Notes: generated by a model from the letters alone, not told the origin. DNA of 39,500 bases from Candidatus Cloacimonadota bacterium (GCA_004375965.1 SOIS01000074.1:1-39500); one strand, 5' to 3'. Shown: positions 1,992 through 35,229, numbered from the stretch's first letter. A program made the numbers and translations.

Positions 1992-2933
1992 TTGAAAAAA
2001 TATATTGTCTTTATTCCGTTAATCATTTTTCTTTTTTCTGGAAAGGTAACAGGTGATTGGACAGATAATATTAGTGATTATTTTACCACTACTTCACCAT
2101 CTGTAGGAATGAGTTTTCTAAAGATTGGAATGGGTGCAAGGGCAGTTTCACTTGGAGGGGCATATTCGTCCGTTGTCAGGGATCCTACGGCAGTTTACTG
2201 GAATCCAGCGGCTGTTATATACACAGAAGGTATGGATGCAAGCTTCAGTCATTTATCACTTATGGAGGGTATTAACTATGAGTTCATTGCAGTATCAACT
2301 GGAGATAAAAACCAGGGAATAGGAATTGGGATGGGTGGAGTATTTTATGGAGGTATGGAATTAAGGGATGAAAGACCTTCAGAGGAGCCGTTAGGCACTT
2401 TTGACGCATACAGTTTTCTTGTTAAGCTTTCTTATGGTCATAAACTTGGAAGTGATATTGCTGCCGGTGTCTCAATAAGTGGTATCCTTGAAAGGATATA
2501 TGTTTATTCCACCCATACCTATACATTTGATTTTGGAGTGCTCTATTTTCCTCCCATAGTTAAGGCTGTTGTAATTTCATTGAATCTGAACAATATCGGA
2601 CCGAAAGTAACGTATCTTGATGAGTCTTTCAGACTTCCATTAACCACAAAACTTGGTTGTTCGTATAGAACAAGAAAGTGGAAAACCAACCTGACTTTAG
2701 CAACTGAAATTTCAAAATCTATTGATACACCTCTTTCAAGTGCTATGGGTATTGAAGCTGGTTTTTCCTACCTTTGTCTCAGGGTAGGCTACCGTTTTAA
2801 CGAGAAAAATATAGTTAGATGGTCTGGTGGACTGGGCATAAAATACAAATTCCTTTCCATCGATTATTCTATCTCGCCATATCTCAAGGATTTAGGGATA
2901 AAACATTGTGTTTCTTTAAATCTGGACTTCTAA
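1992..2933 (+). CDS. PorV/PorQ-like (UPF0164) outer membrane beta-barrel protein
   Basis: Signal peptide then SVGMSFLKIGMGARAVSLGGAYSSVVRDPTAVYWNPAA, the hallmark motif of the PorV/UPF0164 family; TTG start with SD aggagg. Confidence 0.8.
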   Translation: MKKYIVFIPLIIFLFSGKVTGDWTDNISDYFTTTSPSVGMSFLKIGMGARAVSLGGAYSSVVRDPTAVYWNPAAVIYTEGMDASFSHLSLMEGINYEFIAVSTGDKNQGIGIGMGGVFYGGMELRDERPSEEPLGTFDAYSFLVKLSYGHKLGSDIAAGVSISGILERIYVYSTHTYTFDFGVLYFPPIVKAVVISLNLNNIGPKVTYLDESFRLPLTTKLGCSYRTRKWKTNLTLATEISKSIDTPLSSAMGIEAGFSYLCLRVGYRFNEKNIVRWSGGLGIKYKFLSIDYSISPYLKDLGIKHCVSLNLDF

Positions 2934-15018: not shown

Positions 15019-17868
15019 TCAGAATTCACTGCCAAGTGAGAAATGCGTATACATCCTTGAAACGCTTTCAAGGTTTGTGTGCCAGGCAAAATCTAATTTG
15101 AGAATAGCAATGCTTATGTTTATTCTTATCCCTGTACCAAATCCAACCTTCAAATCATCAAGTTTGATTTGCCCTTTAGATTTTATTGCTGTTTTAAAAT
15201 TCTTTAATTCATCTGTAACACCACCAATGTCACAGAAAGTCACTCCTCTTACGCCCCTTATATCCAAAGGAAGGGGAAACCGCATTTTTAACCTCTCAAT
15301 AAATGGGTATCTTAATTCGAGATTTAAAAATCCTGCTTTCGTTCCATAAAAACTATAATAATCGTAACCTCTCACACTTTCGCTTCCACCGAGTGGATAG
15401 TATAATGCATCTTTCCCCCATGAGCTGAATCCATAAATTCTTGTTGCAAAAGAGAAACCCTGTGAAATCCTGTTGTAGTTCCTTATATCACCGTAAAGGA
15501 TGGAGTAATCAAAGGAGTGTTTTGCAACTTGTGGTATAGATTTTGCAAAAGAAAATTTCCACCTTTCTCCATTTATAGGGCCCGTGTATCCCCATAAAGC
15601 TGTATCCCTTATCCAACTGATTGTTGGCAGGACAACATAATGGGGAACTGTCCTTTCCTCGACTAATTCTCCCCATTCATCTATCCATTCAAAAACCTGT
15701 TGAACAGAAAAGGCATCCGCTCCAACATCAAATCTATGAAACTTATCTATGGGGAGACGAAGAAGAACACTACCTCCACGTAATATCTCTTGCATAAGAG
15801 TTACGTTTCCTTCTGTAGAAGAAGGAAAGATTAAATAGTAACTCTTTTCCTGGAAAATGGCAGCACCAAGGTCCCATCTTTTGGGCAGAAACCAGTAGAT
15901 AACTTGAAAGTTTGCATCGAGTAAATTACGTGAGTAGAGGTCAAAAGCAAAGTACAACCTGTTATTACCAAGAACATCGCTAAACGCAATCGCCATCAAA
16001 CTCCGAAAACCATAACCACTGGCAAAAACAAGGTAACCCCCTGCCCAATCAGTAGAGAAATTTAACCCTGCTTTTTCTTCATTATCAAGTTTGTAATCAT
16101 TTTTAACAACTGTATACCGTCTGTTGTAATCTACCCTCTCTCCTGGTTCTGCTTTTGCGTAATCAAAGGGATTATGCATTATATAAACATCATAACCTCC
16201 TTCCTCATACCCAGTGAAAGCAAGTTTTCTATCATCTCTGGAAAGTGTTGGACTTGAAACGTTACTAAAAACATCCGTTAGACGGTAAATGTTCAGGTTA
16301 TCGATTTCAAGTATATAGAGATTATTCACACCTTCTATGTCTGAAACGAATATAATTTTTTTGCCATCTTCTGAAAAAGCTGGATTTCCAAGGTTCGATT
16401 CCCTCTCTGTAAGTTGTTCTATTCCTTCACCATTCTTTTCTATCTTGAAAAGTGCATAATTCCCGTAGTGCCATAAGGAATCGGATACATCTTCTCGGTC
16501 TGAAGAAAAGACGATAAAGTCTCCTTGTGGAGAAAAAACAGGATCTCTGTCATCATAGAGATCTTTTGTAAGCCTTGTGAGTTTTTGTGTCTCAACATCT
16601 ATAATGTAGATGTCGCTCATCCCATCCTTAATCCCGGTAAATACTATGCTATTCTCAACTGGAGAGAAATTTGGAGAGTAAACGGCATCACATTCTGGTC
16701 TCAGTACTGAGAGTATACGTCCATGTTCCGCATCCGCAATATATATTACATCCCCTTTCCCCGATTTTGCGGAAAAAGCAATTTTATTGCCGTCACGAGA
16801 CCAGGATATACCAGGTCTAAGAATATGAAGGTTTTCAAATGTTGCTGATTGCGTGGCTCTGGCTATTTTCTTCAAGATTTCACCATCAATAGCAGATATT
16901 ATCAATATCTCAGTATATTCTTCTTTATCAGTTAAGAACGCAATTTTTGTCCCGTCAGGAGAAATAGATGGACTTACATTATATGCATTTCCCAGTTTCT
17001 TATGGTCGGTCAATTTTCTTGCGATAAGGTCGAGTTCATCTTTTTTATCATATAGTGGCCAGTATCTTTTTTTAAGCGATTTACTCCATTCTCTATTCAG
17101 TTGGTCAATTGAAAGGCCGATCGTACTTTTTAGTGCCTTTTCCAAACCCTTCTTCTGCTTGAGGGTATGAAATAATTCACCCATTTTTTTCCTTCCGTAG
17201 GTTTCACTTATAAACTTGTAAATAGATTGTCCTTCTTTATATACTGCGTATCCGTATACATAGTTGAGGGTTTGAATAGGGATCAATCTATTGTTTATGA
17301 CAGCATCCCTTAAGTAACTTTCTGTTTCCGAATCCCAGTTAAGCGATTCAAATTCTGCAAGACCCTCCATTACCCAGAGCGGTACACTCATCATGAATTC
17401 AGATTGCATGACACTACCAAGTCTTGAACCGAAGAGTATGTCAAACTGGAAAACATGGACAAGTTCATGGTTGATGACATGCCTGAATCTTTCATACGAA
17501 CCTTCGAAAGGAACAACCATTCTGTTTTTGAATATTTCTGTAAACCCACCAACAGATTCTTCAATGAGTGAAGTAGTAACATTTGTCTGTTCGAAATCGT
17601 TATGTGAGTTATATATAATGAGTGGCATCCTTTTCCTGAACGTATGGCTTAAATCCTCCTTAAGTTGATAATATGAATCTTCTGCAACCTGGGCAGCAAA
17701 TTTTGCGAGTTCTTCTTCTCCTTGATAATAGTAGATAGTAAAATGGGGTGTTTTAATATGTTTCCAATCAAAGTCTTTATACTGTATCTTATTCTTCCCG
17801 AATCTCTGTGAATGGAGCAAGGAAAAGAGAAGAATAAACCATAATAGAAAAAAACATAATCTTTTCAA
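15019..17868 (-). CDS. Secreted fusion: peptidase MA-like metalloprotease + TolB/PD40 propeller + BamA/D15-like C-terminal barrel
   Basis: HELVHVFQFD (HExxH) followed by VMEGLAEFES; repeated [ND]xSPSxSPDGxKIAFxSD-type motifs; C-terminal YPLGGSESVRGYDYYSFYGTKAGFLNLELRYPF, DIGGVTDELKN, ending ...HFSLGSEF. Confidence 0.85.
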   Translation of the reverse strand: MKRLCFFLLWFILLFSLLHSQRFGKNKIQYKDFDWKHIKTPHFTIYYYQGEEELAKFAAQVAEDSYYQLKEDLSHTFRKRMPLIIYNSHNDFEQTNVTTSLIEESVGGFTEIFKNRMVVPFEGSYERFRHVINHELVHVFQFDILFGSRLGSVMQSEFMMSVPLWVMEGLAEFESLNWDSETESYLRDAVINNRLIPIQTLNYVYGYAVYKEGQSIYKFISETYGRKKMGELFHTLKQKKGLEKALKSTIGLSIDQLNREWSKSLKKRYWPLYDKKDELDLIARKLTDHKKLGNAYNVSPSISPDGTKIAFLTDKEEYTEILIISAIDGEILKKIARATQSATFENLHILRPGISWSRDGNKIAFSAKSGKGDVIYIADAEHGRILSVLRPECDAVYSPNFSPVENSIVFTGIKDGMSDIYIIDVETQKLTRLTKDLYDDRDPVFSPQGDFIVFSSDREDVSDSLWHYGNYALFKIEKNGEGIEQLTERESNLGNPAFSEDGKKIIFVSDIEGVNNLYILEIDNLNIYRLTDVFSNVSSPTLSRDDRKLAFTGYEEGGYDVYIMHNPFDYAKAEPGERVDYNRRYTVVKNDYKLDNEEKAGLNFSTDWAGGYLVFASGYGFRSLMAIAFSDVLGNNRLYFAFDLYSRNLLDANFQVIYWFLPKRWDLGAAIFQEKSYYLIFPSSTEGNVTLMQEILRGGSVLLRLPIDKFHRFDVGADAFSVQQVFEWIDEWGELVEERTVPHYVVLPTISWIRDTALWGYTGPINGERWKFSFAKSIPQVAKHSFDYSILYGDIRNYNRISQGFSFATRIYGFSSWGKDALYYPLGGSESVRGYDYYSFYGTKAGFLNLELRYPFIERLKMRFPLPLDIRGVRGVTFCDIGGVTDELKNFKTAIKSKGQIKLDDLKVGFGTGIRINISIAILKLDFAWHTNLESVSRMYTHFSLGSEF

Positions 17869-30176: not shown

Positions 30177-33100
30177 ATGAATAAAATTATAATAATTTGT
30201 TTAACTCTTTTCCTTCTTTTTGGACAAATTTGGGCACAGAGTTTAACAATAACAATCCCAAACGGTGGTGAAGAATGGTTTGTTGGTAATAAACATCCAA
30301 TCCACTGGGATTGGTCAGGTTCTATTACTTCAGTCAGACTTGAGTATTCAACAGATGGTGGAGTAAACTGGATGCTTATTGCGTCAACAACAACAAATGA
30401 TGGTGATTATCTGTGGACAATTTCCAACACAATATCAGCAAACTGTTTCGTGAAAATCTCTGATGTATCAAATCCTGCAATCAATGATTTTAGTGATGGA
30501 AGTTTTTCCATAATAAGACCATCAATAGACATTAAAAAACCTGATGGTGGCGAGGTCTTGAGGATTGGTGAATATTATCCAATTCATTGGGACTGGTCAG
30601 GACAATTTAGCAATGTAAAGATTGAATACTCAACTGATGGTGGTAGTTCTTGGAACACAATCATTGCCAACACCCAGAACGATGGTGAGCACTACTGGCA
30701 TATACCAAATGCCCCATCAAATATGTGCCGAATTAAAATTACAAACCTTATTGATCCTGATTGTTTTAACATCAGCGACGATAACTTTACCATTGCAAAT
30801 AACACTATCACAGTTATCAAACCTGATGGTGGCGGGGCATATACAACAGGGCAGATTTATCCAATCATTTGGGACTGGACAGGAAGTTTTACTACTGTAA
30901 AAATTGACTATTCGACCGATGGTGGAACAACTTGGAATTCAATTGTAACTTCTACTGCAAACGATGGAAGTCACAAATGGACCATCCCAAATACTCCCTC
31001 AAATAGTTGTCGTATAAAGATAACAAATACTGCTGACCCAAACTGTTTTGATATAAGCGATAGCAATTTTACTATTTTGTCTACAGGGCTACAATTGGTC
31101 TGCCCAAATGGTGGAGAAATTTATGTTGTTGGCGATTTATGCCCAATTCACTGGGGTTGGCTCGGCACTATAAATTCAGTTAAACTTGAATATTCAACAG
31201 ATGGAGGCACAACTTGGCATACCATTATAAATTCAACAACAAATGATGGTGATTATGTCTGGACTATACCAAACATACCTTCAAACCAATGTCGGATAAA
31301 GATCACAAATCTTAGTGACCCGAATTGCTGGGATATGAGTAGTGCAGATTTTACGGTTGAGAGCCCTTCGTTTATTATATTTGACCCTGACAGTGGAAGG
31401 TCTTTGGTTGCCGGAGAGACATATCCAATTCATTGGAACTGGCGAGGAATAGTTAGCAATATAAAACTGGAACTATGGTATAAGGTTGCGGCTGGGGTTC
31501 AATGGTGGACCATTACATCAAATACACCTAATGATGGTAGCCACTACTTTACTGTCCCCTATTATATCTCCGATTCCTGCGGAATAAAGATAACAAGCAA
31601 TGTTGATGCAAACTGTTATGCATTGAGCGAGGTCTTCAAAATTGTCAGACCAACAATAAAGGTAATCTATCCCAATGGAGGTGAGAATCTCATTGAGGGA
31701 GAAGATATGGAAATTATCTGGGATTGGAATGGTAATTTCTCGAATGTAATGCTACAGTATTCGATTGATGAAGGTTCAAACTGGCAGACAATAACAACCA
31801 GCACATCTAATGATGGCAGTTACCACTGGACTATACCAAGTGGTATTTGGCTCACCTGTCTTTTGAAGGTCATAAATACCACTGACATTGATTGTTATGA
31901 TGTGGGAGATGCAAGTTTTAATATTTTAGATGCAACAATAGATGTAAAAAGGCCAAGTCTTGGAGACACATTCTACATAAAACGTAAGCATCCAATATAC
32001 TGGCAATGGACAGGTGGTTTTCCTACAGTGCGGATTATGTATTCAACAAACGGTGGTGGGTCCTGGCAAAATGTGATTTCTTCCGCACCTAATAATGGCT
32101 ATTATATCTGGACTTGTGATACCATTGTTTCAAATAATGCCCGCATTCAGGTAATAAGTAATCAGAATACTGGTGCCTTTAGCGTAAGCGACCCTTTTGT
32201 TATTGCTGATACTTCTTCTCTTACTGAACCACTTCGTGTTCTGGCACCGCTCCAAGGCGATTCCTTCCCAGTCGGTGGCAAATGTTGCATCACCTGGCAC
32301 AGTATTAATTTTGCATCCCCGAACCAAGTAAATCTTTACTATTCAATTGATGGTCCACCTTGGATTGGTATTGCAACAGTTTCAAATAGTCAAAAGCGAT
32401 ATGAATGGACAGTTCCAAATTATGTAACGGATAACTGCCGGATATTAGCAGAGGATGTTAATGGAACTGCCTCTGACATAAGTGAGAGTTTCTCAATTGT
32501 GCTCCAGAAGATAGAAGTTGTATCTCCAACCTCTGTAAAAGAGTGGGTTGTCGGAAGAAAATATTATATCCTCTGGAACTGGACTGGCGGCTTTTCCAAT
32601 GCAGTTATTGATTACTCTTATAATGGCGGTATTGATTGGGTGACTATTGCCTCACCTACATCCAATGATGGAGCGTATGAGTGGACAACTCCTAATACGC
32701 CTTCTACCCAGTGCCTTATTCGTATAAGAAATTACGAGAATGTAAATGTTGTTACAATCAGTGATACCTTTGCAATAAAACCGCAATCAATAACAATCAG
32801 TTATCCAATTGCTAGCGATAGTTTTATAGTTGGTAGAAAATATTATATTAGCTGGGATTATACAGGTGCTTTTTCCTCTGTGAACATAGAATATTCAATT
32901 GATGGAGGGATAAACTGGACATCAATTGTTTCATCAGCTGCAAATAATCAATATTATCAATGGACAATTCCTAATACACCGAGTAATCTTACAGTTATCA
33001 GGGTGATAAACTCAGCAAATCTCGATGTCTTTGGACTTAGCGATACATTCTCAATAGTTCCCCAGACAATAACCGTAACTTCACCAGTATTGAGTGACCA

Positions 33101-34511
33101 ATGGATTATAGGGAGGAAGTATTATATTACTTGGCTTTATACTGGTGGCTTCTCAAATGTAAAGATCGAATATTCTTATGATAATGGAAGCTCATGGAAT
33201 ACAATAAAGGAAAGCACATCCAATTCACGCAGCTATGAATGGACAATACCCAATACACCCTCAGATGACTGTTTTGTTAGAGTTTTAAATCATGATAATT
33301 TGTCGGTCTGCGATACAAGTGAATTGTTTAGAATACCTTTACAAACAATCGAACTAACATCGCCAAAGACCAATGACAACCTTATCTCAGGTAGAAAATA
33401 CTATATTACCTGGAGATGGACCGGGACCTTCACTTATGTTGATATTCAATATTCTACTGACAATGGAACAAACTGGAGTTATATCGCAAATAATGTAACA
33501 AATAACGGTAATTACGAATGGTCCATTCCAACAGCAAATTCTGAGAGCTGCTTTGTGAAATTGATAAACCCACAAAATCCAAGTGTCTATGATATAAGTG
33601 AAATGTTCTCTATCCTGCCCCAGGAGATTACAATAACATCGCCAATCTTCAGTGATACACTAATTGCTGGAAGGAAATATTATTTAACCTGGAGAACAAA
33701 GGGGTCTTTTAGTAATGCCGATTTGTGGTATTCCCTTGATGGAGGGCAAAATTGGGCTGTTATTGCAACCAATGTTACTAATAATGGCTATTATAAATGG
33801 ACTCTTCCTGAGGCACCCTCAAACCTTGCCTGTATCAAGATTGGCAACAGTGCGCAACCTCCAATCTTTGCCCTCAGCGATACATTCATCATCTCCCCAC
33901 CAATCTTAGAGATTACATCACCATCACTTGGTAATCTATGGTATTGTGATAGGAAGTATTATATTACCTGGAATTGTCTTGGCGGTATACAGCAGGTCAA
34001 TCTATTCTACTCGTTGGATGGAGGTGTTGATTGGGATCAGATTGTGGTGAATCAGCAGAATCAAGGTAATTATGAATGGACAATCCCCTCTGGAATCTCA
34101 TCCCAAAATTGTCGAGTGAAATTGGAAAGTAGTGCAAACTCATTAATCACTTATATGAGTGATTCATTTGCAATTGCTATACTGGGTATTGAAGAGAATG
34201 GTTTGCCTGAGCAATTACCAAAGGACTTCGCCTTACAGGGATTTTTGCCCAATCCATTTGTAAGAAGGGGAAACATCAGACTGGCGATACCCACAAATTC
34301 TAAAATAAAACTTGTAATCTACGATGCCTGCGGAAGACTTGTGAATACAGTCTTTGAAGGAAATATAGAGCCTGGATTTCATTCTTTTACCTTCAATGGT
34401 AAAAACAATCATGGTCAGAATTTACCTGGAGGTGCTTATTTCTTGAGGTTTGAGGCACGCAACAAAAAAGAAAAAATCTACGATTGCACAATAAAGATTT
34501 TGAAGATATAG
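30177..34511 (+). CDS. Secreted repeat protein: 14 tandem ~94-aa Ig-like (Kre9/KNH-like) repeats + T9SS type-A-like C-terminal domain
   Basis: Signal peptide MNKIIIICLTLFLLFGQIWAQ; repeats of form [IT]xPNGGExxxxGxxxPIxWxWxGxFxxVxIxYSxDGGxxWxxIxxxxxNDGxYxWTIPNxPSxxCxIKI; C-terminus PNPF...LVIYDACGRLV...LPGGAYFLRFEA...TIKILKI. Confidence 0.9.
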   Translation: MNKIIIICLTLFLLFGQIWAQSLTITIPNGGEEWFVGNKHPIHWDWSGSITSVRLEYSTDGGVNWMLIASTTTNDGDYLWTISNTISANCFVKISDVSNPAINDFSDGSFSIIRPSIDIKKPDGGEVLRIGEYYPIHWDWSGQFSNVKIEYSTDGGSSWNTIIANTQNDGEHYWHIPNAPSNMCRIKITNLIDPDCFNISDDNFTIANNTITVIKPDGGGAYTTGQIYPIIWDWTGSFTTVKIDYSTDGGTTWNSIVTSTANDGSHKWTIPNTPSNSCRIKITNTADPNCFDISDSNFTILSTGLQLVCPNGGEIYVVGDLCPIHWGWLGTINSVKLEYSTDGGTTWHTIINSTTNDGDYVWTIPNIPSNQCRIKITNLSDPNCWDMSSADFTVESPSFIIFDPDSGRSLVAGETYPIHWNWRGIVSNIKLELWYKVAAGVQWWTITSNTPNDGSHYFTVPYYISDSCGIKITSNVDANCYALSEVFKIVRPTIKVIYPNGGENLIEGEDMEIIWDWNGNFSNVMLQYSIDEGSNWQTITTSTSNDGSYHWTIPSGIWLTCLLKVINTTDIDCYDVGDASFNILDATIDVKRPSLGDTFYIKRKHPIYWQWTGGFPTVRIMYSTNGGGSWQNVISSAPNNGYYIWTCDTIVSNNARIQVISNQNTGAFSVSDPFVIADTSSLTEPLRVLAPLQGDSFPVGGKCCITWHSINFASPNQVNLYYSIDGPPWIGIATVSNSQKRYEWTVPNYVTDNCRILAEDVNGTASDISESFSIVLQKIEVVSPTSVKEWVVGRKYYILWNWTGGFSNAVIDYSYNGGIDWVTIASPTSNDGAYEWTTPNTPSTQCLIRIRNYENVNVVTISDTFAIKPQSITISYPIASDSFIVGRKYYISWDYTGAFSSVNIEYSIDGGINWTSIVSSAANNQYYQWTIPNTPSNLTVIRVINSANLDVFGLSDTFSIVPQTITVTSPVLSDQWIIGRKYYITWLYTGGFSNVKIEYSYDNGSSWNTIKESTSNSRSYEWTIPNTPSDDCFVRVLNHDNLSVCDTSELFRIPLQTIELTSPKTNDNLISGRKYYITWRWTGTFTYVDIQYSTDNGTNWSYIANNVTNNGNYEWSIPTANSESCFVKLINPQNPSVYDISEMFSILPQEITITSPIFSDTLIAGRKYYLTWRTKGSFSNADLWYSLDGGQNWAVIATNVTNNGYYKWTLPEAPSNLACIKIGNSAQPPIFALSDTFIISPPILEITSPSLGNLWYCDRKYYITWNCLGGIQQVNLFYSLDGGVDWDQIVVNQQNQGNYEWTIPSGISSQNCRVKLESSANSLITYMSDSFAIAILGIEENGLPEQLPKDFALQGFLPNPFVRRGNIRLAIPTNSKIKLVIYDACGRLVNTVFEGNIEPGFHSFTFNGKNNHGQNLPGGAYFLRFEARNKKEKIYDCTIKILKI
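30240..34185 (+). repeat. Coding tandem repeat, 14 units of about 280 nt
   Basis: Counted by the recurring SxDGGxxW and GxYxWTIP motifs in the translation. Confidence 0.85.
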
Positions 34512-34668: not shown

Positions 34669-35229
34669 CTACCATTGCCACGAAATTTTAAGGTCCTCTT
34701 TGGGAAGAAAATATCTTCTGGTTATGTAATAGAATTGTTTATCCTCCTCAGTTCTTACACTATCAGGTTCCATAGAAATGCTCAATTCCTTGAATTCCAG
34801 AGGTGCTTCAATGATAAACTGTAATTTATTGATTTTTTCCTTCCACAATTTATCTAAAATATAGACTGCGCTTTTGTTGTTTATCTTTTGCTTATATTCA
34901 ACAAATACTGTTTCTACACTATTAGGTTCAAAATGCAATACCCACTCTATACCATTTTTCTTTTTGGTTAGGTCTATGTGATTTATGGGGTCTAAAACAT
35001 TGATCTTTTCTGGGTATAGATGATTGCTGTTTATTGGGAATTGATAAACCATAATGACATCAATCTCAAAGTTGGATTTGTTTTCAAAAAAGTATAACCC
35101 CTGAACATGGACATAATTTTTTTCCAATTTAATATTTATCTCTCCTTTGAAGAATTTTATAGGCATCTCTGCAAAGGAGTACGAAATAAAATAGATAACA
35201 AAAAACATTGAAAGGATTAGTCTTTTCAT
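34669..35229 (-). CDS. Hypothetical secreted protein
   Basis: Signal peptide MKRLILSMFFVIYFISYSFAE; single uninterrupted ORF with its own promoter. Confidence 0.65.
   Translation of the reverse strand: MKRLILSMFFVIYFISYSFAEMPIKFFKGEINIKLEKNYVHVQGLYFFENKSNFEIDVIMVYQFPINSNHLYPEKINVLDPINHIDLTKKKNGIEWVLHFEPNSVETVFVEYKQKINNKSAVYILDKLWKEKINKLQFIIEAPLEFKELSISMEPDSVRTEEDKQFYYITRRYFLPKEDLKISWQW

Follow-up and report, generated by a model that had tools for sequence, protein, structure and literature searches.

A fourteen-unit Ig-like repeat protein with a T9SS-type tail, a likely surface stalk related to WOR-3 proteins

The gene at 30177–34511 (plus strand) of the window, the whole 39,500-nucleotide stretch of DNA analyzed, apparently encodes an exported Ig-like repeat protein of 1444 aa, which is likely secreted by a T9SS-like route and anchored at the surface as a stalk or adhesin. 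It is a protein of an ordinary kind, old and maintained. As a rule, duplication and homogenization would be expected to blur a long repeat protein; here, each bead keeps its positional counterpart across species, so that single beads can be investigated as distinct parts, each with a conserved role. A more surprising lead than the stalk protein is a possible motor-less T9SS: the translocon, the sortase, and the sorting tails were found, with the known motor and ring undetected, a result relevant to the definition of a minimal T9SS.

Unit layout and bead fold

The reading frame starts with ATG and continues without interruption. Behind an apparent Sec-type signal peptide, probably cleaved near Ala20-Gln21, 14 tandem units occupy aa 23–1335, each comprising 92–98 aa (94, 94, 94, 94, 95, 94, and 98 aa for U1–U7, 93 aa for each of the next six units, and 92 aa for U14). 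The initial annotation had counted about 14 units, and this number holds; the self-identity at an offset of 93 residues is 21.8%, compared with a maximum of 10.5% across all offsets in 200 shuffles, a repeat periodicity far beyond chance. The gene is composed of the following features, with the supporting analysis in brackets.

30177–34511, plus strand: whole gene (open reading frame, unit count, purifying selection)
30177–30242, plus strand: Sec-type signal peptide MNKIIIICLTLFLLFGQIWAQS (read by eye from the sequence)
30243–30524, plus strand: unit 1, N-type, first Cys only (unit count, tree)
30525–30806, plus strand: unit 2, N-type, Cys pair (unit count, tree, AF2)
30807–31088, plus strand: unit 3, N-type, Cys pair (unit count, tree, AF2)
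31089–31370, plus strand: unit 4, N-type, Cys pair (unit count, tree, AF2)
31371–31655, plus strand: unit 5, N-type, Cys pair, over the PF10342 cut-off (profile scan, cross-protein match)
31656–31937, plus strand: unit 6, N-type, Cys pair (unit count, tree, long-form match)
31938–32231, plus strand: unit 7, junction (14-unit tree)
32232–32510, plus strand: unit 8, junction (14-unit tree and five-protein tree)
32511–33905, plus strand: units 9–13, C-type, GRKYY[IL]xW (unit count, tree); U9 32511–32789, U10 32790–33068, U11 33069–33347, U12 33348–33626, U13 33627–33905
33906–34181, plus strand: unit 14, C-type, DRKYYITW (unit count, tree, long-form match)
34182–34508, plus strand: C-terminal linker and T9SS type A/FlgD_ig-like sorting domain (TIGR04183, FlgD_ig, AF2)

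Adjoining the gene, an exported-looking protein of 186 aa is encoded on the minus strand (34669–35229), with no Pfam match at E 0.01.

The best whole-unit sequence match of the beads is PF10342 (Kre9/KNH), for which the curated cut-off is 24.6 bits; scored as single units, U5 lies over it with 26.2 bits, and U12 (23.5 bits), U8 (18.2 bits), and U1 (15.7 bits) lie under it. The AF2 model of U2–4, calculated from a 74-row alignment, has a pLDDT of 96.2, a pTM of 0.76, and nine strands per unit. In a Foldseek search against the PDB, this model retrieves proteins with tandem Ig and Fn3 domains; over the three beads taken as one chain, the TM-scores stay below 0.5, probably due to differing bead-to-bead angles. 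The three units are thus modeled as Ig/Fn3-like beads with an Ig-like β-sandwich, a match to a fold and not to a family, and the PF10342-type fold proposed at the outset is borne out by the U5 score and the modeled beads. The whole-protein Pfam scan also returned Reelin_subrepeat-B (104 bits), CHB_HEX_C, BNR, and Tli3; none is accepted as family membership, since all of these matches rest on a repeated short Asp-box, YSTDGGxxW, an origin exposed by the single-unit scan. A sequence search of the PDB yields FlgD for the tail and, for the beads, only Asp-box fragments of reelin and sialidases.

Unit 5 is the most distinctive N-type bead. Its mean identity among orthologues is the highest (74%) and its identity to the other units is low (34%); in addition, it carries a two-residue insert and has lost the Asp-box at the usual place. 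Such a bead would be the best candidate for a specialized contact site.

Two unit subfamilies and the age of the array

The two subfamilies first noticed by eye, U1–6 and U9–14, are recovered by several measures. The mean identity is 44.6% within U1–6, 43.8% within U9–14, and 36.5% between the sets, and among 924 ways of splitting the labels six to six, only this split and its mirror do as well (2/924). In the 14-unit tree, U1–6 are situated on one side of a branch with weak support (65/71), U7 joins them (83/85), U9–13 form a group (79/76), and U8 is placed with U14 (97/94). With 94 columns, a tree from one protein alone is weak, and the units of relatives were therefore added. In the resulting 121-unit tree, drawn from five proteins, a branch (SH-aLRT 88) separates all 57 N-type units from the rest; the other units make up the C-type, which the tree does not establish as a clade. 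The repeat phylogeny had been set beforehand as the refuting test, and units 1–6 do split from units 9–14. The term transitional for units 7–8 is loose, as U7 sides with U1–6 and U8 with U14. Both signature motifs of the initial annotation are right with corrections: NGGE...PIHWDWSG describes U1–6, except that U5 reads DSGR in place of NGGE and that U3 and U6 read PIIW and EIIW, and xGRKYYITW describes U9–14, with DRKYYITW in U14.

The Cys pair, C68 and C80 in the within-unit numbering, does recur in the N-terminal half, where it is confined to U2–U6, U1 possessing just the first Cys. Not most, as had been stated, but all of U9–14 are without the pair, and the first Cys is kept in four of the six (U9, U11, U12, and U14); C68 alone is common in both the N and C zones. 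In the AF2 model, C68 is located within a ten-residue strand (65–74), and C80 lies past the following loop, directly ahead of a short strand. Among the relatives, the pair is found in U2–U6 of L083 (81% identity), in U3–U5 of L088 (66%), in no unit of L082 (58%), in 2 of the 100 long-form units (see below), and in none of the 151 units from outside WOR-3. The two residues co-occur above chance (p 0.018 for the 14-unit orthologues, p 0.003 for all sets), in units that are related and not independent. From these distributions, the pair appears to be a young, lineage-limited feature of units 2–6. Disulfides are possible, but as a general property they are unlikely, because the pair is young, lineage-limited, and absent from the 58% relative; the intra-repeat disulfides proposed for the N-terminal half are weakened accordingly.

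The closest homologues, L083 (G002:C225, from the same family as the source genome) and L088, belong to candidate division WOR-3 bacteria. Together with L082 and the window protein, they make up the four 14-unit proteins. Against each of the three relatives, reciprocal best hits link 14/14 units, position by position and in order. Across the three comparisons, 14, 14, and 13 of the 14 units resemble their counterpart in the other species more than they resemble any other unit of the window protein. Compared with the 81% orthologue, dN is 0.10 and dS 0.87, with a dN/dS of about 0.12 that is low in all 14 units; the gene is under purifying selection, even along its length.

In a different WOR-3 family, the homologues are about twice as long, with 3131–3152 aa and 31–32 units (L084:3212–12667, L086:3251–12643, and L087:2903–12352; the long homologue of G045 is split over two contigs). 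The long forms are composed of N-type units 1–15, a junction, and then C-type units. Window units 1, 2, 5, and 10–14 match long-form units 1, 2, and 14 and the end block, and the support for units 3, 4, and 6 is less even; the reciprocal best hits are all in order. In the trees, U5 joins long-form unit 14 (99) and U6 joins long-form unit 15 (87), and U14 is the counterpart of the last long-form unit. The additional long-form units are not nested within individual short-form units. Since the families have in common the two zones as well as the end-bead identities, these features predate the split between them. Judged from these sequence relationships, the array is evidently old, beads having been gained or lost later in the middle between lineages, and the length differences would not derive from recent duplication or homogenization.

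Such a history bears directly on the proposal that the N and C halves arose by two independent and recent expansions of unit blocks, with the N half stabilized by disulfides. The two subfamilies seen by tree and identity would fit it, as would the co-occurrence of C68 and C80, with the dependence of the units noted above. However, the independent expansions put forward in the initial annotation are opposed by the same zones and end-unit identities in the 31–32-unit homologues of another family, by the units that are nearer to their counterparts in other species than to those of their own protein, and by the absence of the Cys pair from the 58% orthologue and nearly all other units. The word recent already appears to be contradicted, and the proposal as a whole is highly improbable.

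The same repeat was also observed elsewhere. An Ignavibacteriaceae MAG encodes a protein of 4838 aa with 46 such units and a T9SS-like tail end (L089:3416–17929), and a Sporocytophaga MAG (L091:4474–16673) contains three neighboring open frames with 14, 15, and 10 units, which may be a single gene interrupted by frameshifts; in that assembly, stops also interrupt SprA and GldM.

The sorting tail and the T9SS components of the genome

The tail contains the motifs PNPF, IYDACGR, GGAYF, and ...TIKILKI. With TIGR04183 (T9SS type A, cut-off 23 bits), it scores 28.5 bits in isolation and 24.2 bits within the whole protein, both over the cut-off, consistent with the type A-like C-terminus first suggested; among the homologues, 5/6 lie over the cut-off and the sixth has 21.8 bits. 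The top Pfam match is FlgD_ig, over its cut-off with 44.2 bits, and Por_Secre_tail (PF18962) remains under its cut-off of 27 with 22.5 bits. In the AF2 model, the tail consists entirely of strands (pLDDT about 80), and the model of U13, U14, and the tail matches PorU (6za2). The Lb3b4 glycine and the last-strand lysine are named as functional in T9SS tails (PMC11285876); by eye, both can be located in this tail, in DACGR and TIKILKI.

The source genome (2.29 Mb, 263 contigs, 95% complete) encodes an SprA/Sov translocon (G000:C245; 478 bits summed, cut-off 200) and a PorU sortase (G000:C232; 579 bits, cut-off 420) with porV adjoining. Seven PorV-family genes lie over the cut-off. One of them is located in the window, 27 kb from the stalk gene; it is not the porU-adjacent porV and has no Pfam match at E 0.01.

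1992–2933, plus strand: PorV-family protein (NF033709 141 bits, cut-off 90)

Several PorV paralogues may serve different cargoes. TIGR04183 has 42 matches in the genome, 41 of which are over the cut-off, and the proposed search for T9SS genes elsewhere in the genome thus returned SprA, PorU, PorV, and about 40 other tails. A clear SprA exists in all five genomes, namely the source genome and the WOR-3 genomes G002, G014, G020, and G035.

In the same five genomes, neither the PorM/GldM motor subunit nor the PorN/GldN ring subunit has a match, and both models recover their targets in the control Confluentibacter (465 and 273 bits, respectively). The PorL/GldL model, which has no positive control, also gives no match. 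In an Ignavibacteria MAG with an SprA of 1003 bits, the GldM and GldN models likewise find nothing. HMM absence is not absence of function, and the WOR-3 versions of GldM and GldN may have diverged; the motor and the ring in the WOR-3 genomes would be diverged, replaced, or absent. In Flavobacterium, secretion is powered by motor subunits (PMC8986121). Other FCB phyla, WOR-3 not among them, have been given as possible T9SS carriers (PMC11285876, 2024), and a search for literature on T9SS in WOR-3 found none. It is tentatively proposed that WOR-3 bacteria have a T9SS-type outer-membrane route in which SprA, PorU, and PorV handle about 40 cargoes with tails. This route would lack the PorLM/PorN motor and ring of Bacteroidota or would use an unrelated one in their place, and the window protein would be one of its surface stalks, with a fixed, ancient two-zone bead order.

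The proposed stalk and its relation to known systems

In the proposed pathway, the protein would be exported by Sec, and its C-terminal Ig-like domain would then be recognized by the SprA–PorU–PorV apparatus of the genome, so as to cross the outer membrane. As in the T9SS type A pathway, PorU would cut or exchange the tail, leaving the protein anchored or released. The 14 Ig/Fn3-like beads would form a rod, with units 9–14 nearest to the anchor and units 1–6 farthest out. Unit identity and order would be held by purifying selection, and the length would differ between lineages via the gain and loss of internal units.

Apart from the beads, no domain for binding or catalysis was found in the protein. 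The neighbors, an AIR-synthase-family gene, hsp20, lon, recO, and nudix, are unrelated housekeeping genes, and no window neighbor recurs at the counterpart place in the relatives; a PBP match in L083 was rejected as a shared neighbor because it is a paralogue-level hit (32%). Elsewhere in the window (15019–17868, minus strand), a 949-aa protein has the unusual make-up of a peptidase MA-like domain joined to PD40 β-propeller repeats and a C-terminus of the Omp85 superfamily.

Two other readings of the protein have to be weighed against the surface stalk. In one, no T9SS carries the protein, which is periplasmic or released, and its tail is simply a final bead, an Ig domain of the common FlgD-like type. 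The top Pfam match, the sub-threshold PF18962 score, and the failure to find GldM and GldN all point this way. However, the FlgD_ig score is no argument against a sorting tail, because the genome's own PorU tail scores likewise, and the TIGR04183 matches here and in the homologues, several of which have no FlgD_ig match, in combination with SprA, PorU, PorV, and about 40 such tails, make this reading unlikely. In the other, the repeats are not a passive stalk and act as a lectin-like or polysaccharide-binding scaffold, an idea that is in line with the Kre9/KNH-type domains and SGBP-like proteins among the weak sequence and fold matches; it is nevertheless very improbable, as the fold search returned generic Ig/Fn3 tandems, no match to a carbohydrate-binding family was obtained, and the gene lies outside any polysaccharide-use cluster. 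From the original alternative of a surface adhesin or polysaccharide-binding stalk, the surface stalk or adhesin thus remains as the best reading, based on the tail, the translocon, and the sortase, and no support was seen for polysaccharide binding.

The surface stalk can be compared with three known systems. Similar to T9SS type A cargo, it has an apparent signal peptide (by eye) and a C-terminal Ig-like sorting domain over the TIGR04183 cut-off, and SprA, PorU, and PorV are present in its genome; the differences are that the tail also matches FlgD_ig and that GldM and GldN are undetectable. With the bacterial PF10342 repeats, it shares the bead length, the pattern P..G...(V/I)G....I.W....VkieYS.DgG..W....NdG.Y.WtiP, and one bead, unit 5, over the cut-off, but most of its units fall under this cut-off and the C-type units carry GRKYY[IL]xW. 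PF10342 is named after fungal cell-wall proteins, and such a function is not implied here. Compared with the tandem Ig/Fn3 stalks and adhesins of bacteria, no hook or catalytic tip was found, and a fragment of the Aureispira grappling hook protein GhpA (9flw), ranked 40 by Foldseek, is a generic fold match with no shared sequence shown. What the protein has in common with these stalks and adhesins is the predicted architecture, a rod of many Ig-like beads ending in an anchoring C-terminus.
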